A DNA stretch of 64,000 nt from Gemmatimonadota bacterium (GTDB lineage Bacteria > Gemmatimonadota > Gemmatimonadetes > Gemmatimonadales > Gemmatimonadaceae). Below the pieces are notes generated by a model. It searched no databases. It had not been told where the DNA came from and saw nothing but the letters and a program-made list of their open reading frames with translations. The position numbers and the translations under genes were made by a program. Below, in pieces: positions 29,861-56,661 of the stretch. Positions within the stretch are counted from its first letter, which is position 1; every line of letters begins with the position of its first letter. The stretch lies in the NCBI GenBank assembly GCA_021298835.1, contig JAJTHG010000008.1, positions 1 to 64,000 of the forward strand. The letters run 5' to 3'.

Positions 29861-31039
29861 TCAGTCCATCTGCCGACGAATGAACGTCGGGATCTCCATG
29901 TCGGAGAGTTCGCTCGCCGACATCCCCTGCGGATGCCGCCCTGCGGGGGGCACGTTCGGCGGGGGCACCTGCGGCATCGGCATCCCCGCCGATCCGCGCA
30001 CGCCGCCGCGCGGCGGCAGCGGCGTGACGGAGGGCACGGCGGCGCGTCCGCTCGCCTGGGAGGGAAGGGGCACCCCCATGTCGTAGTCGAAGCCGGTGGC
30101 GATGACGGTGACGCGGATCTCCCCCTGCATCGCCGGTTCGGTGACCGAGCCGATGATGATGTCGGACTCATCCCCCGCTGCCTCGTGGATGAGTTCCGAG
30201 ACGGTGGTGAACTCGCCGAGCGTGAGGTCGGTGCCTCCCGAGATGTTGATCAGCACGCCCTTGGCGCCGCGAATGCTCAGGTTGTCGAGCAGCGGGGAGG
30301 CGATCGCCTGCTGCGCCGCCTCGACCGCGCGGTTCTCGCCACGGCCCACACCGGTGCCCATGAGGGCCGCCCCGCCGTTCGTCATGACGGTGCGCACGTC
30401 GGCGAAGTCCACGTTCACGATACCCGTCTTCACGACGATCTCGGAGATCCCGCGGGTCGCCTGCAGCAGCACCTCGTCGGCCTTCTTCAGCGCGTCCTGG
30501 AACGGGATCCCCTTCCCCACGACGGCCATGAGCCGCTCGTTCGGGACGATGATCATCGTGTCCACGTGCTTGCGCATCTCGGCGATGCCCTGCTCGGCCT
30601 GCTTCATCCGCTTCTTGCCTTCGAAGAGGAAGGGCCGCGTCACGATGCCGACGGTCAGCGCGCCGGCCTCCTTCGCCAGCTCGGCCACCACCGGCGCGGC
30701 ACCGGTGCCGGTGCCACCGCCCATGCCGCAGGTGACGAACACGAGGTCGGCTCCCTGCACGACGCGCGCGACGTCGTCACGGTTCTCGTCGATCGCCTGC
30801 CGACCGATCTCCGGCCGCGCCCCCGCCCCGAGTCCGCGCGTGAGCTTCTGTCCGATCTGCACCTTCACGTCGGCCTTCGACGCGAGCAACGCCTGCGCAT
30901 CGGTATTGACCGAGATGAACTCCACACCCTGCAGGGACTCGTCGATCATGCGGTTGACGGCGTTGCCGCCACCTCCCCCGACGCCCACGACCTTCATGCG
31001 GGCGCCCTGCTGGGTCGTTTCCTCGAATTCGAAGATCAT
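29861..31039 (-). CDS. ftsZ: Cell division protein FtsZ
   Basis: Tubulin-like GTPase forming the division ring. It is 392 residues from the ATG ([19 protein letters not shown]). The GTP-binding motif is [37 protein letters not shown] and [20 protein letters not shown] are typical, the latter supplying the synergy loop. A Pro-rich linker leads to the conserved C-terminal peptide [11 protein letters not shown], which binds FtsA. An upstream open extension of 27 codons runs into the leader and is rejected. It is preceded by a 261-bp leader with DnaA-box-like sites and inverted repeats. Confidence 0.98.
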
Positions 31040-31099
31040 TCGGTGCTCGCTGAGTTCGGGCGTCGCGTGCTGCACTGGCCGCGTGCCGACGAAGATAAC

Positions 31100-31120
31100 G
31101 TGTGGAGAACGATTCCACAC
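31100..31120. promoter_or_regulatory. Inverted repeat upstream of ftsZ
   Basis: GTGTGGA, 7-nt spacer GAACGAT, TCCACAC: perfect 7-bp arms. Each arm carries a near DnaA-box (TGTGGAGAA on the plus strand; GATTCCACA opposite). It is 60-80 bp before the ftsZ start. Either a protein operator or a leader hairpin. Confidence 0.45.
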
Positions 31121-31157
31121 CGTATCGAGAGCAACGTCGCGGCTTTGTGGCGGTTGT

Positions 31158-31179
31158 CAAGATGGTTTTCCACATCTTG
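31158..31179. promoter_or_regulatory. Hairpin enclosing a DnaA-box-like TTTTCCACA
   Basis: CAAGATG, 8-nt loop, CATCTTG: perfect 7-bp arms. The exact 9-mer TTTTCCACA is at 31166-31174. It is about 130 bp before the ftsZ start and abuts the TTGACA-like hexamer. Confidence 0.45.
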
Positions 31180-31300
31180 GTCGGGCGCACGTATCCCGTT
31201 TCCGCCCCCCCTCTCGGCACGCCGCCGTTTCCCGATCGCAGCCCTTGGCCAGGTGCCACCTCGGTCCGATCCCTTCGTGGAGGGACCGGTCAGCGAGGGA

Positions 31301-32566
31301 TCAGAAGAAGTCCTGCAGCCACGTCTTCAGGCGCTGCACGAGCTTCCCCGCATCGGCACCACCCGGGATGGACAGCCGCCGACCGCCGCTCGGCCCGGCG
31401 AATCCCAGCGCCATCCGGTTCGCCCCGTACAGCGCCAGCCCGACCGACGTCGAGAACCGTGGCGCTTCGACCGAGTCGGCCAGCCCGCCGACCCCCTCGG
31501 TCGGTACGCCGACGCGAGCGCCGATGCCGAAGACGTCCTGCGCCAACTCGACCGTGCCGGGCGCCTGGGCCGCCCCGCCGGTGAGCACGATCCCGCCGGA
31601 CAGCCGCCCCGCGTAGCCCGATTGCTGGATCCCCCGCTGCACGAGATGGAACATCTCGTCGGTCCGCTGGTGGATGATGTGGGCCAGCAGTTCGCGGGGA
31701 ATCCGTCGGTCGCCCTGCGCCGCGGTGCTGGGCAGCGAGATCGTCTCGCCCGGCGGCGAAAGCGGCTCGTACGCGATGCCGAACCGCTCCTTGAGCCGCT
31801 CGGCGTCCGCCTGCGTCACCCCGAGGCCATGCACGACGTCGCTCGTCACGTGGCTGCCACCGAACGGGACGGTCCCGACGTGCCGGATCTTCCCTTCGTG
31901 GAAGAGCGCCACGTCCGTCGCCCCGGCACCCATCTCGATGAGCGCGACCCCGAGCTCCTTCTCGTCCTCGGTCAGCGTCCCGAGCGCCGAGGCGAGGGGC
32001 TCCAGCACCAGCTCGCGAATCTGGTAGCCGGCCCGCTCGACCGCCTTGCGCAGGTTCATCGCGGGCGAGGCCCCGATCGTCACGAGGTACATCTCGGTCT
32101 CCAGCCGGGTCCCGATCATCCCGATCGGGTCGCGGATCCCCTGGTTCTTGTCCACGGTGTACTCCTGCGGGATCGCGTGCAGCAGCTCGCGGTCCTGCGG
32201 GATCACCTGCGCCCGGGCGACTTCGTTGACCCGCTCGACGTCGGCGCGCGAGATCTCGGGGCCGGAGACCGCCACCACCCCGTGGGACGTCATCGCCTGC
32301 ACATGCTCGCCGGCGATGCCCACGTACACCGCCGGCACCTGCGCTCCCGCCATCCGCTCGGCGTCGGTCATCGCCTTCCGGATCGCCCGCATCGTCTCCT
32401 CGATGTCGGAGACGACGCCCTTGCGCAGCCCGGTCGTGCGGGACTGGCCCACCCCCAGGACGCGAATCTCGGGGCGCTTGGGGAACTCGCCGACCACTTC
32501 CGCGATCACGGCGGTGGTCTTGGCGGAACCGATGTCGAGTCCGGCGACGAGGCGTTCGGGATTCAT
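31301..32566 (-). CDS. ftsA: Cell division protein FtsA
   Basis: Actin-like ATPase that anchors FtsZ to the membrane. It is 421 residues. Actin-fold motifs: phosphate-1 GLDIGSAKTTAVIAE at the N-terminus, phosphate-2 ALIEMGAGATDVALF near residue 205, and adenosine motif SGGIVLTGGAAQAPG near residue 325. The 1C domain lies around 85-165 (VYVGIAGEHVQAM). The C-terminus LVQRLKTWLQDFF is the amphipathic membrane-targeting helix. It starts 9 bp after ftsQ. Confidence 0.97.
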   Translation of the reverse strand: MNPERLVAGLDIGSAKTTAVIAEVVGEFPKRPEIRVLGVGQSRTTGLRKGVVSDIEETMRAIRKAMTDAERMAGAQVPAVYVGIAGEHVQAMTSHGVVAVSGPEISRADVERVNEVARAQVIPQDRELLHAIPQEYTVDKNQGIRDPIGMIGTRLETEMYLVTIGASPAMNLRKAVERAGYQIRELVLEPLASALGTLTEDEKELGVALIEMGAGATDVALFHEGKIRHVGTVPFGGSHVTSDVVHGLGVTQADAERLKERFGIAYEPLSPPGETISLPSTAAQGDRRIPRELLAHIIHQRTDEMFHLVQRGIQQSGYAGRLSGGIVLTGGAAQAPGTVELAQDVFGIGARVGVPTEGVGGLADSVEAPRFSTSVGLALYGANRMALGFAGPSGGRRLSIPGGADAGKLVQRLKTWLQDFF

Positions 32567-33301: not shown

Positions 33302-34692
33302 GACCGCCCCGCCAACGCCGCGAGCAGGTCGCGGGACGCCAGGGTGATGTCCCCCGCCCCCATGGTCACGACGACGTCGCCGCTCCGGAGCGCGGGCCGC
33401 AACGATGCGACCACGTCCGTCCGGGGACCGGTCCAGGCCGGCGGACGTCCCGCGCCGGTCATGGCGGAGGCGATGAGCGCCGAGCTGACCCCGGGGATCG
33501 GCTGCTCGCGCGCGGGATAGATGTCGCACAGCCAGACCGCGTCGGCCGCGGCGAGCGCCGCGCCGAACTCGGTGGCGAAGTCGCGCGTGCGGCTGAACAA
33601 GTGCGGCTGGAACGCGACCACCAGCCGACGTCCGGGATACGCGCCACGGGCCGCCGAGAGCGTCGCGGCGACCTCGGTCGGGTGATGCGCGTAGTCGTCC
33701 ACCACCTGGATGCCGCGGACCTCCCCGATGCGCTGGAAGCGACGCTCCGCCCCCTGCACCCCCGCCAAGCCGCGCGCCATCGCGGCCGGCTCGGCACCAA
33801 GCGCCAGCCCGGTCCCGATCGCCGCCAACGCGTTGCGGACGTTGTGAAGGCCCGGCAGCGGGAGCACGAATTCGCCGATCGACTTGTAGTCGAAGGTCAC
33901 GTCGAAACGACTGCCCACTCCCTCGGGCCGGATCCGGCGAGCCACGAGACGGGCGTCGGGAGACACCGCCCCCTCGACCTCGATCCCGTACCGGATCACT
34001 TCGGCCGACACCGGATACGGCAGGCGATTGGCCTCGGGATCATCGGCGCAGGCCACGACCCAACGCGCGGGCTTCAGGAATGTGGAAAACGTCTCACGGA
34101 TGTCCTCGAGGTCGCGATAGATGTCGAGGTGGTCCGCTTCGAGATTGGTGACGATCGCCACCGTGGGGCGCAGCGACAGGAACGACCGGTCGTACTCATC
34201 GGCCTCGACCGCAAAGACATCGTCGCCGCCACGCCGAAGGTTCCCGCCCCACGCCGCGACACGCGCGCCAACGACTCCGGTTGGCTCCATCCCGGCAGCC
34301 GCCAGGGCCTCGGTGACGAGCACCGTCGTCGTCGTCTTGCCGTGCGTCCCCGCCACCGCCACGACCCGTCCATCGTTCACGGCCTCCCCAAGCGCCTCCG
34401 CCCTCCTGATCACGGGAATGCCAATTTGGCGGGCCCTGTCGATCTCAGGATGACCCTTCGGCATCGCCGACGTGACGACGAGTGCCCGAGCACCGTCCAC
34501 ATGCGAGGGTTCATGACCGGCGACGACCGGAATGCCCAAGGCCTTCAGATCGCCCACGCCGGCGATGCTCGCGTCGCAGCCCGTGACGCGGACCCCCCGT
34601 CTGTGGAAAAGCTCTGCGAGCGCGCTCATCCCCGCCCCGGCGATTCCAACGAAATGCACCGGTCGAACATCGTCGCTGTGGAAAAGCGCCAT
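33298..34692 (-). CDS. murC: UDP-N-acetylmuramate--L-alanine ligase
   Basis: Adds L-Ala to UDP-MurNAc, the first peptide step of peptidoglycan synthesis. It is 464 residues from the ATG (MALFHSDDVRPVHFVGIAGAG). The nucleotide-binding motif is VAGTHGKTTTTVLVTEAL; VEADEYDRSFL, TNLEADHLD, LPGLHNVRNALAAI and DDYAHHPTEVAATL are Mur-ligase blocks. An extension 22 codons upstream runs into the AT-rich leader and is rejected. Three copies of TTTTCCACA lie inside the N-terminal third, built from codons that are rare here (CTT, TTT, ACA, AGA). GC content is visibly lower in this end of the gene. Confidence 0.97.
   Translation of the reverse strand: MALFHSDDVRPVHFVGIAGAGMSALAELFHRRGVRVTGCDASIAGVGDLKALGIPVVAGHEPSHVDGARALVVTSAMPKGHPEIDRARQIGIPVIRRAEALGEAVNDGRVVAVAGTHGKTTTTVLVTEALAAAGMEPTGVVGARVAAWGGNLRRGGDDVFAVEADEYDRSFLSLRPTVAIVTNLEADHLDIYRDLEDIRETFSTFLKPARWVVACADDPEANRLPYPVSAEVIRYGIEVEGAVSPDARLVARRIRPEGVGSRFDVTFDYKSIGEFVLPLPGLHNVRNALAAIGTGLALGAEPAAMARGLAGVQGAERRFQRIGEVRGIQVVDDYAHHPTEVAATLSAARGAYPGRRLVVAFQPHLFSRTRDFATEFGAALAAADAVWLCDIYPAREQPIPGVSSALIASAMTGAGRPPAWTGPRTDVVASLRPALRSGDVVVTMGAGDITLASRDLLAALAGRS
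34081..34089. promoter_or_regulatory. DnaA-box-like TTTTCCACA in murC
   Basis: Exact 9-mer (TGTGGAAAA on the plus strand), fitting the TTWTNCACA DnaA-box pattern. In murC it encodes F-S-T as TTT TCC ACA, starting at codon position 1. Confidence 0.4.
34602..34610. promoter_or_regulatory. DnaA-box-like TTTTCCACA in murC
   Basis: Exact 9-mer, same orientation as its neighbours. In murC it lies in CTT TTC CAC AGA (L-F-H-R), starting at codon position 2 and using the rare AGA codon. Confidence 0.4.
34677..34685. promoter_or_regulatory. DnaA-box-like TTTTCCACA at murC start
   Basis: Exact 9-mer overlapping codons 3-6 of murC (CTT TTC CAC AGC), 75 bp from the site at 34602 and close to the AT-rich island. 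Confidence 0.45.
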
Positions 34693-34729
34693 ACTCACTT
34701 TGTGCGTATTGCCCCGACGCTGACAGCAC

Positions 34730-34744
34730 TGACAATGATTGTCA
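34730..34744. promoter_or_regulatory. Perfect 7-1-7 palindrome resembling a Fur-family operator
   Basis: TGACAAT-G-ATTGTCA, 38 bp before the murC start. It matches the Fur 7-1-7 pattern TGATAATnATTATCA except for one symmetric change (T to C at position 4 and its mate). It may bind a Fur, MntR or other dimeric regulator. Confidence 0.45.
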
Positions 34745-34784
34745 TGTGAGAAGTGCAAAATGTTGTATTAGTTAGCATTGTCGC

Positions 34785-34805
34785 TTCAATCTAAAGACGA
34801 TTGAA
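34785..34805 (-). terminator. Hairpin directly after murG
   Basis: TTCAATC, 7-nt loop, GATTGAA: a perfect 7-bp stem beginning 3 bp past the murG stop. It is AT-rich and not followed by a U-run; it could attenuate read-through from murG into murC. Confidence 0.35.
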
Positions 34806-34808
34806 AGG

Positions 34809-35921
34809 TCAGTTGGCGATCAGCGTGCGCACTCTCTCGGCGATCTCAAGCGCTGAGTCAGGGCGCGCCCGGCGGAGCGCAGCGATTCGCATGGCCTTCA
34901 GGCGCTCCTCGCCTGCCAGCAGCTTGTCCACAGTGTCAGCCAACGCCCTGGAAGTCAACGTCTGCTGTGGAAAACAGATGGCGGACCCGGCGTCCTCGAG
35001 TGCGCGCGCGTTGGTGGTCTGGTGGTCGGCGGCGGCGGTCGGGAGTGGGATCATGATTGCGGGAAGGCCCCACGCCGACAGCTCGGCGCAAGTGATTGCA
35101 CCAGCCCTGGTGATCGCCAAATCGGCAGCAGCGTACGCATGGGAGATCGGCGACAGATATGGCGTCACGACGATACGACCATCGCTGGCGAGGTCCCGAT
35201 ACTGGGCCTCCTGCCCTGCACCGGTGGCCCAGATGAGCCCGACGCCAGCGGGGAGTCCGGAGCGTACCCAGCCCGCGACGGCCTCGTTGATCGCACGAGC
35301 ACCCTGACTGCCCCCGAAGACCAGCACGATCCGGCCGAGTTCGGTCGTCAGGCCAAAGCGTCTCCTTGCGTCGGCGGCGGATTCGCGCGCTGCCGGCGGC
35401 GGTTCGATCGGGCTTCCTGTCACAAACGTTGCCTTTCCACGGAAGTGTGGTGCGGCTTCGGGAAAGCCCAGATAGAGCTCGCGGGACCAGCGCGCCGCCC
35501 ATCGGGCGGTGAGGCCCGGCACGACATCGGCGACTTGTTGGACGACCGGCACGCCGCGGCGACCGGCCCAGGCGACGGCGAGGCCCATGGCGTAGCCGCC
35601 GGTACCGACGACCGCGACCGGGGGGCGTTCGCCGGCCAGCGCGGTGAGTCTGCGCCACGCCAGCACGGCCCCGCGCACGGTCTTCCAGTTCTCCCACGGT
35701 CGCCGGCGATAGAGGGGGTGCAGGTCGAGCAGCTCGAAGGCGAACCCCTGGGTCGGCAACACGGTGCGTTCGATGCCTCGACGAGCCCCGATGAAGAACG
35801 GCTCGATCGCGGGATCGAGCCGTACGAGGGCACGGGCGATGGCCAGCCCCGGGTACAGGTGCCCGCCGGTACCGCCTCCGGCGAACCAGACGCGTCGCCG
35901 GTCGCCGGTCGTCGCAGGCAT
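34809..35921 (-). CDS. murG: UDP-GlcNAc:lipid I N-acetylglucosaminyltransferase
   Basis: GT28 glycosyltransferase that makes lipid II at the inner membrane. It is 370 residues. N-terminal VWFAGGGTGGHLYPGLAIA, VVGTGGYAMGLAVAWAG, second-domain VLVFGGSQGARAINEAV and the donor-site ITRAGAITCAELSAWGLPAIMIPLPTAAADHQTTNA are all present. The ATG (MPATTGDRRR) was chosen although the frame is open upstream through the Pro-rich minisatellite, because no ATG, GTG or TTG occurs there. No Shine-Dalgarno sequence; translation may depend on reinitiation after ftsW. Confidence 0.95.
   Translation of the reverse strand: MPATTGDRRRVWFAGGGTGGHLYPGLAIARALVRLDPAIEPFFIGARRGIERTVLPTQGFAFELLDLHPLYRRRPWENWKTVRGAVLAWRRLTALAGERPPVAVVGTGGYAMGLAVAWAGRRGVPVVQQVADVVPGLTARWAARWSRELYLGFPEAAPHFRGKATFVTGSPIEPPPAARESAADARRRFGLTTELGRIVLVFGGSQGARAINEAVAGWVRSGLPAGVGLIWATGAGQEAQYRDLASDGRIVVTPYLSPISHAYAAADLAITRAGAITCAELSAWGLPAIMIPLPTAAADHQTTNARALEDAGSAICFPQQTLTSRALADTVDKLLAGEERLKAMRIAALRRARPDSALEIAERVRTLIAN
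34924..34932. promoter_or_regulatory. DnaA-box-like TTGTCCACA in murG
   Basis: Matches the DnaA box preferred in high-GC actinobacteria. It points opposite to the TTTTCCACA sites and lies within the murG 3' end. Confidence 0.35.
34976..34984. promoter_or_regulatory. DnaA-box-like TTTTCCACA in murG
   Basis: Exact 9-mer encoded as TGT TTT CCA CAG (C-F-P-Q), starting at codon position 3; TTT and CCA are rare here. Confidence 0.4.
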
Positions 35922-35930
35922 CGGCGGATG

Positions 35931-36014
35931 CAGCGGGGGCGTCAGCGGGGGCGGCAGCGGGGGCGGCAGCGGGGGCGGCAGCGGGGGCGGCAGCGGGGGC
36001 GTCAGCGGGGGCGG
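35931..36014. repeat. 12-bp minisatellite, seven copies, between ftsW and murG
   Basis: Seven head-to-tail copies of CAGCGGGGGCGK (K = G or T; copies 1 and 6 end in T). The array fills the ftsW-murG gap and contains the ftsW stop codon. On the minus strand the units read as Pro-Pro-Pro-Leu or Thr-Pro-Pro-Leu in frame with murG, without a start codon. Copy number is likely variable between strains. Confidence 0.95.
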
Positions 36015-37228
36015 CCCGTCGGGTCGGTCGCGTGTGCCCCGACGACCCGTTCGCGGACGCTGCCGATGTTGACCAGCATCCCCGTCATGGCCAGCGACAG
36101 CACGAGATTCGAGCGCCCGAAGGAGATGAACGGCAAGGTGAGTCCCGTGGTCGGCAGCAGGCCGATGACCACGCCGATGTGCAGGAAAGCGGTCACGACC
36201 ATCGTCACCGTGATCCCGACCGCCATCAGCGACTGGAAGGGGGTCCGGGCCTGGGTCGCGATGCGCATCCCCAGCCAGCCGTAAGCGCCATAGGCCAGCA
36301 CGAGCCCGGCGATGCCGAGGAAGCCCCATTCCTCGCCGACGTTCGAGCCGATGAAGTCGTTGTAGGCAAGCGGGAGGAAGCCCAGTTGCTGCCGCCCTTC
36401 GCCGAAGCCCACCCCGAACAGCCCGCCGGAGCCGACGGCAATCAGGGACTGCTTGAGCTGGTAGCCCACCTCGGCTGGCGCCTTGCCCGGGTCGAGGAAG
36501 GAAAAGACACGGAGCACCACGTACTGCAGCCGCTGCGCCTGATGCCACAGGAAGGGGATGGCCACGACCCCGAGCAGGATGAAGTGGCCCATCCGCACCC
36601 CGCCGGCGAAGAGGATGACGCCCATCACGAGCGTGTAGAGCATCGCCACGGAAAGGTCGGGCTCGAGGATCGCGAGGATGTCGAGCGCGCCGACCACCAC
36701 GAGGAACGGCAGCAGCCCCTTCGTGAAGCGGCGGAGCTGGTCGCCCTTCTTCACGACGAGCATCGCGGTCCAGACGATGACGGCCAGCTTGCCCAGCTCG
36801 GACGGCTGCAGCGAGCTCCCCAGCAGGAAGCGGCGGGAGCCGTGGAGTCGGGGGGCGATCGTCTCCGTCCACGGGAGAATGACGAGCGTCATCGTGGCCA
36901 GCACGACGAGCATGAGAGGCCACGCCCACCCGCGCCAACGCTCGGCGTCGAGCTTGGCGGCGACCGCGAAGCAACAGATCCCGGCCAGCCCCCCCGTCGC
37001 CTGCCGGAAGAGGAAGAAGGTCGAGGCGCGCCCCGCGTCCATCGCCTCGATGGCGCTCGCGCTGTAGAGCGTGGCCAGGCCGAAGACGAGGAGACCGGCG
37101 GACACGAGCACCAGCGCCCGGGCCTCGACGGACATCCGCCAGCGCTCGCGCACGCCGGCCGGCGCGGCCTGCGACGCGACGGCCGACGGCCGACGGGCCG
37201 GCAGATGGGGCAGGACGGCGGTACTCAT
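36002..37228 (-). CDS. ftsW: Lipid II polymerase FtsW (SEDS family)
   Basis: Septal peptidoglycan glycosyltransferase working with FtsI. It is 408 residues with about 10 membrane helices. The cytoplasmic N-terminus of 35 residues precedes ALVLVSAGLLVFGLATLYSASAIEA. The catalytic region contains LEPDLSVAMLYTLVMG (Asp of EPDLS), GYQLKQSLIAVGSGGLFGVGFGEGRQQLGFLP and FISFGRSNLVLSLAMTG. The ATG overlaps the murD stop (ATGA). The last residues GRPR-stop are encoded by the first unit of the minisatellite. Confidence 0.95.
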   Translation of the reverse strand: MSTAVLPHLPARRPSAVASQAAPAGVRERWRMSVEARALVLVSAGLLVFGLATLYSASAIEAMDAGRASTFFLFRQATGGLAGICCFAVAAKLDAERWRGWAWPLMLVVLATMTLVILPWTETIAPRLHGSRRFLLGSSLQPSELGKLAVIVWTAMLVVKKGDQLRRFTKGLLPFLVVVGALDILAILEPDLSVAMLYTLVMGVILFAGGVRMGHFILLGVVAIPFLWHQAQRLQYVVLRVFSFLDPGKAPAEVGYQLKQSLIAVGSGGLFGVGFGEGRQQLGFLPLAYNDFIGSNVGEEWGFLGIAGLVLAYGAYGWLGMRIATQARTPFQSLMAVGITVTMVVTAFLHIGVVIGLLPTTGLTLPFISFGRSNLVLSLAMTGMLVNIGSVRERVVGAHATDPTGRPR

Positions 37229-54164: not shown

Positions 54165-56065
54165 CAGCGGAGCTCCTCGTGGAGGCGGGCACCGACGTCG
54201 GGCCAGTCGGCGACGACCTTCTCGGGGGAGGCGAAGAAGGGGTCGGCGACGGCCAGCGACCGCGGGGTTGCTGCCGTCGTCGGCTCGAGGACGCGGTGGA
54301 CGAGCGCCGGCCCGACCGGCACGCCGGCCTCGGCGGCGGTGCGGTGGATCGCCCGGACCATCCGCTGCAGGTCGGCGGCCGACCGCCCCTCGTCGCGGGC
54401 CACGGCGGCGATGACCTCCGGCTCGGCCTCGTCCCCCAGCGCGTGGAAGAAGCGCGCCACGAGCTTCTCCCGCAGCGAGGCGTCCGGCGGCCGGAGCTCG
54501 ACGACCAGCCCCTCTTCGAGGCGCGTCCGCACCCGGTCCTCGAGGCGCGGCAGCTCGCCCGGCGCCACCTCGCACGTGACCACGACCTGCTTGCCGAATT
54601 CGCGGACCGAGTTGAGGAGGTGGAAGAGCTCCTCCTGCGAGCGCTGCTTGCCGGCGACGAACTCGATCCCGTCGAGGCAGATCACGTCCGCCGAGCGGTA
54701 GCGGGCCCGCCACCGGTCCACCGTGTCGTCGCGGAGCGCGAGGATCAGCTCCTCGCTGAAGGCCATGGCGCTGGTGCACGCCACGCGTCGGTGCGGGCCG
54801 GCCGGGTCGGCGAGGGCGTTGGCGATCGCGTGCAGGAGGTGCGTCTTCCCCGAGCCCGGCGGGCCGACGATCACGAGGGGATTGTAGCGCCCGGACGGCT
54901 CGGCGATCACGACGTCGGCCGCGCGGACGGCGAGCTGGTTCGCGTTGCCGAGGGCGAGCCCGTCGCGCGTGAGCGACGGATCGGGTTGCGGCGGCGGGGC
55001 CGTCGCGGCCAGAAGCCGGTCCACGATCGCCTCCGCCTCGCGCACCCGCTCCGGGTCGCGGAAGCAGCGCTGCGCGCCGAGGGCGGGGTCGATCGCGAGC
55101 GCCTGGCGCTCGAGCAGGCGCAGATGTTCGACGGCCGCCTCGTACATCGCGAGCAGGCCGTCCACGTCAGGGGCCTCCGGCAGCGCGGCCGCACGCCGCA
55201 GCACGCCGGTCTCCCAGCCGATCGCTCCCCACCGCTCGATCGCGTCGCCGAGCCGCGTCTTCCAGGCCGGTTCGACGTGCTGCTGCACGGCCGCCGTCAG
55301 GCGCGAGACGAAGGCGTCGAACTCGCCGCCCCCACGCTGCGCCGGCGCGGCAGCCGGCGTCACCATGCGCGTCGGCGCGGCCCCGCCGGGCTGGAGCAGC
55401 TCGCGCTCGGCGATCAGCCGGTTGAGCTGCCCCTGCAGTTCGCGAACGTTGGTGCCGTCGCGGAGCGCGAGAGCGTCGAGCTGTTCGCGGCCCACGGTGA
55501 TCCCGCGCTCCCGGCACTTGGCGTCGAGGATGGCGAGCCGCGTCTCGTAGTCCGGCGCGGCCACGTCCACCGTCAGGCCGCCGGCGAGGCGGGTGACGAG
55601 GCGCTCGTCCACGTCCGGGATCTCGTGCGGCGGACGGTCACTCGTGAGGACGATCTGCTGCCCGGCCTCCTGGAGCGCGTTGAAGAGACGCAGCAGCACC
55701 TGCTGCGTTTCCGGATGGCCGGTGAGGAACTGGATGTCGTCGAGCAGCAGCAGATCGGAGCGCTGGAGCCGTCCCGTGAGGGCCGCGAGCTGTCCCGTCG
55801 CGACGGCGTCCGCCAGCTGGCGCACCAGCTCCTCGGTCGCGAGGACCTCGACCTGCAGCGCAGGGTCGAGGTGCGTCGCGTGCGCCCCGATCGCCCCGAG
55901 CAGGTGCGTCTTGCCAAGCCCGGAGCCGCCGTAGATCACCAGCGGGTTGTACACCGCGCCCGGGCCTTCGGCGACGGCCCGTGCCGCCGCGACGGCAAGA
56001 CGGTTCGCCGGGCCGACGATGAAGTTGTCGAAGCGGTGCGACGCGCCGGCGTAGGTCACCGTCAC
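54164..56065 (-). CDS. Tandem DnaA-type AAA+ ATPase lacking the DNA-binding domain
   Basis: 633 residues from a GTG overlapping the mglA stop (GTGA). Module 1 (1-220): [14 protein letters not shown]-loop GGSGLGKT (46-53), Walker [10 protein letters not shown] (105-113), [22 protein letters not shown] (arginine-finger region) and lid [14 protein letters not shown], all in DnaA order. A helical linker (about 250-360) follows. Module 2 (365-600): P-loop GPPGSGKT (401-408), Walker [10 protein letters not shown], in which the second acid is Gly465, and [16 protein letters not shown]. No domain I and no domain IV helix-turn-helix are present, so it should not bind DnaA boxes. Context points to the chemosensory/MglA system. 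Confidence 0.88.
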
Positions 56066-56661
56066 CGCTCCCCCCCCTGACTCAGCCGGCGGAGCACCAG
56101 CTCGGAGATCCCCTTGAGCGTCTCGAAGACGCCGGCACCGTGCAGCGCGTCGGCCGCGAAGTCGGGAACGTCGCGGAAGTTCAGCGCATCGCGCAGGTCC
56201 GGGACCGGCAGGATCAGCTCCGAGGGCAGGTCGCGCTTGTTGTACTGCAGCACCAGCGGCACCTCCCGCGGATCGAGCCCCTGTTCCGCCAGGTTCGCGT
56301 ACAGGTCCTGCAGCGACTCGACGTTCTCGTCGAACTGCCGGCGCTGGCTGTCGGCGACGAAGACGACGCCGTCGGCGCCCTGCAGCACGAGCTTGCGCGT
56401 AGCCTGGTAGTACACCTGACCGGGCACCGTGTAGAGCTGGAACTTGGTCGTGAAGCCGGAGATGCTGCCGAGGTCCAGCGGCAGGAAGTCGAAGAACAGG
56501 GTGCGGTCGGTCTGCGTCGCGAGCGACACCATGGTGCCCTTCCGGTCGGACGGGACCTGCTGGTAGATGTAATGCAGGTTCGACGTCTTCCCGGACCGGC
56601 CCGGTCCATAATAGACGATCTTGCACGTGATCTCGCGGGTCGAGTAGTTGACGATGGACAC
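56062..56661 (-). CDS. mglA: MglA-type small Ras-like GTPase
   Basis: 199 residues from a GTG ([19 protein letters not shown]). G1 is [10 protein letters not shown] (19-28); the switch II region reads [20 protein letters not shown], with TVPGQ in place of the classical DxxG, as in Mgl[22 protein letters not shown] and [13 protein letters not shown] (NKxD, guanine specificity) follow. In Myxococcus and Thermus MglA switches cell polarity and motility with the roadblock GAP MglB. It starts 2 bp after a roadblock gene, matching the usual mglB-mglA pairing. Confidence 0.95.

Follow-up and report, generated by a model that had tools for sequence, protein, structure and literature searches.

A DnaA box in the ftsZ promoter of Gemmatimonadaceae suggests a link between chromosome copying and division

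Introduction

The closest described system is that of Caulobacter crescentus, in which the ftsZ promoter is activated by DnaA, according to the parts of two reports that are drawn on here (PMC3193534, PMC8203912). The picture is different in E. coli, where three DnaA boxes precede ftsZ without affecting its transcription, as stated in the portion of PMC8203912 that concerns them; direct DnaA control of ftsZ is supported in Caulobacter but rejected for the E. coli boxes in that same account. A second, apparently independent lineage with a DnaA box and an ftsZ promoter of its own would show that such coupling evolves repeatedly. Gemmatimonadaceae, a family of soil and water bacteria, might be such a lineage. 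Division in Gemmatimonadota is unusual in that FtsZ-based fission occurs at varied planes (in the relevant part of PMC11271474), and no mention of DnaA control of ftsZ in Gemmatimonadota was found in the titles or abstract starts of the literature searched. We analysed a 64,000-nt stretch of a Gemmatimonadota bacterium (GCA_021298835.1, contig JAJTHG010000008.1, positions 1 to 64,000; hereafter the window) together with its relatives, and the best reading is that ftsZ appears to have gained its own DnaA-controlled promoter in Gemmatimonadaceae.

Genomes and leaders

The dcw regions of 54 relatives were taken (20 kb each where the contig allowed); 80 named genome records and another 60 genomes of the family then supplied more leaders. 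The family name Gemmatimonadaceae comes from the named records where they state a family. In the named set, 16 of the 80 loci were without a usable ftsZ, and among the remaining 64 nine gaps duplicated ones already present. The 202 pooled sequences gave 173 with an ftsZ start and, once copies identical over the last 120 nt had been removed, 129 distinct leaders (108 from the family and 21 from its sisters), while 52 non-redundant representatives of the family were picked greedily by blastn. A box at 333 nt (genome G015) was scored as a miss. Density was compared in the 28 family genomes, the window's included, that had both genes in the fetched stretch; the FtsZ tree had 52 + 11 rows, the 11 being every second of the 21 sister rows; and boxes at other genes were sought in six genomes, in part.

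The ftsZ leader of the window

The dcw cluster of the window lies on the minus strand, and its ftsA/ftsZ junction holds the following features.

29861..31039, minus strand: ftsZ (392 aa), a clear equivalog (TIGR00065, E 1.8e-125; PF00091, PF12327)
31301..32566, minus strand: ftsA (421 aa), a clear equivalog (TIGR01174, E 6.2e-118; PF14450, PF02491)
31040..31300, minus strand: family-specific ftsZ leader, that is, the ftsA-ftsZ gap of 261 nt (16-39 nt in sister families f2 and f3)
31166..31174, plus strand: DnaA box TTTTCCACA (TGTGGAAAA in the ftsZ direction), an exact match with orientation and spacing as in relatives
31158..31179, no strand: inverted repeat CAAGATG-8-CATCTTG around the box, its arms not conserved in relatives
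31157..31162, minus strand: TTGACA hexamer adjoining the box, with no matching -10
31100..31120, no strand: 21-nt inverted repeat GTGTGGA-7-TCCACAC, made of two weaker box-like halves and not conserved as such
31101-31109, minus strand: box-like half TTCTCCACA of the second repeat
31111-31119, plus strand: box-like half GATTCCACA of the second repeat
31092..31097, minus strand: putative ftsZ -10 TATCTT (context CGTTATCTTC), the counterpart of the family GCGTTATATTC by position and similarity, with one mismatch

The gap of 261 bp between ftsA and ftsZ given in the preliminary description was measured at the same length (31040-31300). DnaA boxes follow the pattern TTWTNCACA. The 9-mer at 31166-31174, which begins 135 nt before the start codon of ftsZ, fits this pattern as well as the DnaA box consensus TTATCCACA (as given in the part of PMC8203912 used here) and, judged by sequence comparison, is the conserved element of the window's ftsZ leader. 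The copies of the box in the window are beyond chance, because TTWTNCACA occurs 11 times in the whole 3.46-Mb genome and the exact TTTTCCACA is found five times in the window versus 0.04 expected from shuffles. Genome-wide, TTWTNCACA shows no enrichment over the reversed pattern, and the leader matches therefore do not follow from its abundance.

A box conserved in the family

Of 108 distinct Gemmatimonadaceae leaders, 74 carry the strict box TTNTCCACA in the 300 nt before ftsZ (shuffles: mean 0.7, max 3); of the 52 non-redundant ones, 34 do (shuffles: mean 0.3, max 1) and the other 18 are without it over that distance. Conservation in relatives, which had been put forward as a check in the preliminary description, was thus found for the box. 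Outside the family it was found in 0/21 sister-family leaders and 0/19 leaders from the rest of the phylum (five other families), in which the end of ftsA and ftsZ are 16-216 nt apart and the last 300 nt before ftsZ contain neither TATATT nor TATAAT. When 9-mers were ranked without supervision, the two with the top scores were TTATCCACA (15/52) and TTTTCCACA (13/52). The strict box is also concentrated in the gap itself, with 21 copies in 13.6 kb of family gaps versus 11 in 513 kb of flanking dcw DNA, a 71.8-fold difference in density across the 28 genomes.

The gap between ftsA and ftsZ, which is 16-39 nt long in the two sister families f2/f3, measures 175-1113 nt in 27 of 28 genomes of the window's family (f1) and 2620 nt in one. 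The complete genome G021 goes further, with ftsZ more than 10 kb from ftsA and a leader that still has TTATCCACA 271 nt before the ftsZ start. Among the 17 leaders with a -10 but without a strict box, five show a box with 8 of 9 positions matching, in the same place and orientation (shuffle mean 0.21). On the FtsZ tree, boxes are spread across the deep branches of the family and are missing mainly from one 10-row clade, with 10 changes of box state versus a shuffled mean of 21.1; this is a quick tree, in which the window (G000) and G003 are on long branches, and the window's own placement, joined to another long-branch row, is unsure.

Ties to a promoter element

The box is associated with a conserved ftsZ promoter element, as a DnaA-regulated ftsZ promoter of the Caulobacter type requires. 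TATATT is present 40-190 nt before ftsZ in 43 of the 52 non-redundant family leaders and in 0/21 sister leaders. The other refuting condition of the preliminary description, the lack of a transcription start in the gap, is countered indirectly, by this conserved -10. In the 23 non-redundant leaders with both elements, the box is 76-107 nt from the -10 (median 85, SD 7.6) and its distance to the start codon has an SD of 31 nt (r 0.97), which argues that the box is tied to the promoter and not to the gene start. The putative -10 of the window, TATCTT (31097->31092), deviates from consensus, sits just downstream of the second repeat and is about 77 nt from the box. A possible helical phasing of box and -10 at 10.5 nt (p 0.0015 on all 48 leaders in which the spacing was measurable) fell to a p of about 0.12 on the 23 non-redundant leaders and is not claimed.

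The orientation of the box is also fixed in most leaders (29 of 34 box-bearing leaders have it forward only, three reverse only and two both ways), and it mostly reads TGTGGANAA toward ftsZ, with a variable third base (T 15, A 13, G 5, C 3). Of 32 leaders, 14 have a further element, TCA[ACT]AA, at 26-28 nt on the upstream side of the box (shuffles: mean 0.58, max 4; control stretches: 2/64); the window leader lacks it.

DnaA as the likely reader

DnaA is likely to be the protein that reads the ftsZ box, because the same 9-mer, oriented toward dnaA, is found in the 400 nt that precede this gene in 16 of 17 family and 12 of 13 sister (f2/f3) genomes, or 28 of 30 across the order, and in one of four more distant genomes. 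In the sister families dnaA has the box and ftsZ does not, and the difference therefore sits in the ftsZ leader. The alignment of the window organism's DnaA with solved DnaA proteins extends through the C-terminal motifs PRQ and RDHSTVIH, and the match to 1j1v (residues 397-480) places the DNA-binding domain IV within it.

The known use of a box at dnaA is autoregulation by DnaA (described in part of PMC8203912), and the 9-mer found upstream of dnaA in this order is the same. The two sites differ in layout, the box at dnaA reading toward the gene, usually 12-100 nt from the start codon, whereas that at ftsZ is mostly in the opposite orientation and upstream of the -10, a contrast that is consistent with different roles but no proof of them.

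Inverted repeats and the TTGACA hexamer

The preliminary description had focused on two inverted repeats and a TTGACA hexamer. The hairpin said to enclose the box does exist (CAAGATG at 31158-31164 and CATCTTG at 31173-31179, 8 nt apart), but the enclosure is not strict, the box extending 2 nt into the second arm; likewise, the conservation expected of the repeats in relatives applies to the 9-mer, which is kept across the family, and not to the CAAGATG/CATCTTG arms. The second repeat was found where it had been placed, about 50 nt nearer ftsZ than the first (GTGTGGA at 31100-31106 and TCCACAC at 31114-31120, 7 nt apart), directly upstream of the putative -10, which it abuts, and it is terminator-like as RNA. 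Its role as a functional element finds modest support, an additional TCCACA core on the ftsZ side of the box being modestly enriched, at positions that vary (10/32 leaders; shuffle mean 2.3, max 7).

The TTGACA hexamer is present (31162->31157 on the ftsZ strand) but is not well conserved and, like the hairpin arms, is not supported as a functional element. A sigma-70 scan gave no promoter-like pair using it, and its candidacy as the -35 of an ftsZ promoter was rejected. A search of the leader for known RNA families returned only one sub-threshold microRNA match (E 0.29).

Boxes at murC/murG and at other loci

The other four exact copies of TTTTCCACA in the window are at 34081, 34602, 34677 and 34966 (span 34081-34974), with one TTGTCCACA at 34924, and flank the AT-rich murG/murC junction at a local GC-skew minimum. 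For any one stretch, the Poisson chance of four boxes in 894 bp is about 3e-12, to be multiplied by about 3,900 stretches. Three of them are inside murC and occupy two different codon frames, which hints at selection on the DNA. The cluster was found in 0/54 relatives and is possibly a site of DnaA titration or control. An origin there is unlikely: oriC at murC/murG was considered and rejected, the skew minimum being only local (it is deeper at 114 kb of contig C64) and, like the cluster, unshared by the 54 relatives. No skew pattern was readable in seven 20-kb samples of the complete genome G021.

Several other observations were made along the way. A palindrome, TGACAATGATTGTCA, is at about 34731-34745 in the murG/murC junction, and a short, in-frame-looking repeat, GGCGGCAGCGGGGGC, is near the murG/ftsW junction (window 35930-36020). 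At 54167-56626 (minus strand), the window encodes a protein with two DnaA-type AAA+ domains (PF00308 twice) and no DnaA C-terminal DNA-binding domain listed; it may be a regulator of DnaA or an Hda-like protein with a link to the division cluster. Paired PF00308-type domains with a spacing of about 1.1 kb are present across f1-f3, and several genomes (e.g. G009, G019, G040) have them on the murC contig, about 20 kb from that gene. Two genomes, the window's and G022, also have DnaA boxes before recA, at up to about 300 nt (L002:1501-1509, L289:1941-1959), and others are near rsmH (mraW), shortly upstream in G016 and about 1 kb upstream in G013 (L307:1919-1927, L301:1909-1917).

Proposed control of ftsZ and its alternatives

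We consider it probable that ftsZ of Gemmatimonadaceae has its own leader promoter, which would come under DnaA through a single box located about 85 nt before the -10. DnaA would bind at that distance from the -10 and modulate, most likely activate, ftsZ transcription, and the supply of FtsZ would then follow the level or nucleotide state of DnaA. Activation, as in Caulobacter, is favoured over simple occlusion because the box lies upstream of the -10, and in the window genome the second, weaker box pair that abuts the -10 could bring in repression when DnaA is abundant. The preliminary description had called it plausible that DnaA links replication to division at ftsZ; family conservation, fixed distance to the -10, absence outside the family and the match at dnaA make this well supported by comparison, and narrow the predicted functional element to the 9-mer and the promoter.

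Other explanations deserve to be weighed against this one. The TCA[ACT]AA element at its fixed position (-26 to -28 from the box in 14/32 leaders) means that another protein probably binds nearby, and a different regulator might then read the TGTGGANAA site itself, its likeness to a DnaA box being a coincidence; this is rather unlikely, since both the consensus and the third-base variation fit a DnaA box and the same 9-mers precede dnaA in 28/30 genomes, where DnaA autoregulation is the known use (in the section of PMC8203912 cited above). DnaA might also bind without any change in ftsZ transcription, the box being a passive or titration site, for which E. coli provides a precedent (PMC8203912, in part) and the dense cluster inside coding sequence at murC/murG a parallel in the window genome. 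We regard this as unlikely, passive binding having no need of a box whose distance and orientation are linked to the ftsZ -10 and which stays with ftsZ where ftsZ has moved from ftsA.

The second inverted repeat of the window could terminate or attenuate transcription between ftsA and ftsZ as an intrinsic element, given a terminator-like match at 31120-31100 (a 7-bp stem followed by GTTATCTTCG) and an RNA hairpin z of -2.26, but this is improbable: the T-rich tail sits where relatives have the -10 GCGTTATATTC, the hairpin is without counterpart in most of them, and the first box (31166-31174) is left unexplained. It is more improbable still, and by far the least credible of the explanations, that the boxes mark the chromosomal origin, even though the murC/murG junction, which is AT-rich (about 51% GC) and has four exact boxes within 894 bp, falls at a local minimum of cumulative GC skew (about 34.7 kb). 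The skew minimum at 114 kb of contig C64 is deeper, none of the 54 relatives has the cluster, dnaA has another location (beside reading frames for rpmH and rnpA), and the family-wide ftsZ box would again be unexplained.

Returning to control of ftsZ by DnaA, a broader scenario can be put forward tentatively, although we lean against it as a whole. At the origin of the family, ftsZ would have left its tight linkage to ftsA for a new promoter (with a DnaA box and TCA[ACT]AA 26-28 nt upstream), DnaA would have become a direct timer of FtsZ, independently of Alphaproteobacteria, and in the window's genus the murC/murG cluster would bring control by DnaA, or its titration, into the dcw cluster as well. 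If true, the boxes at ftsZ, together with those at dnaA, recA (two genomes) and rsmH (two genomes), would make up a DnaA regulon spanning replication, repair and division, none having been found in print for the phylum. The comparison of f2/f3 with f1 offers a natural before-and-after view of such a change.

Comparison with known systems

The boxes upstream of ftsZ in the E. coli ftsQA region resemble that of Gemmatimonadaceae in being DnaA boxes within the dcw cluster, but are inside coding sequence, whereas the latter is intergenic, promoter-tied and conserved in the family. Caulobacter crescentus is the closer parallel, since it too has DnaA box(es) in the promoter region of ftsZ, an ftsZ promoter of its own and a proposed coupling of initiation to division. 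It belongs to another phylum, however, and has two boxes, whereas Gemmatimonadaceae usually have one, about 85 nt upstream of a TATATT -10 and with TCA[ACT]AA 26-28 nt further up. No ftsZ box was found elsewhere in Gemmatimonadota, which indicates that this family gained its own independently of Caulobacter.
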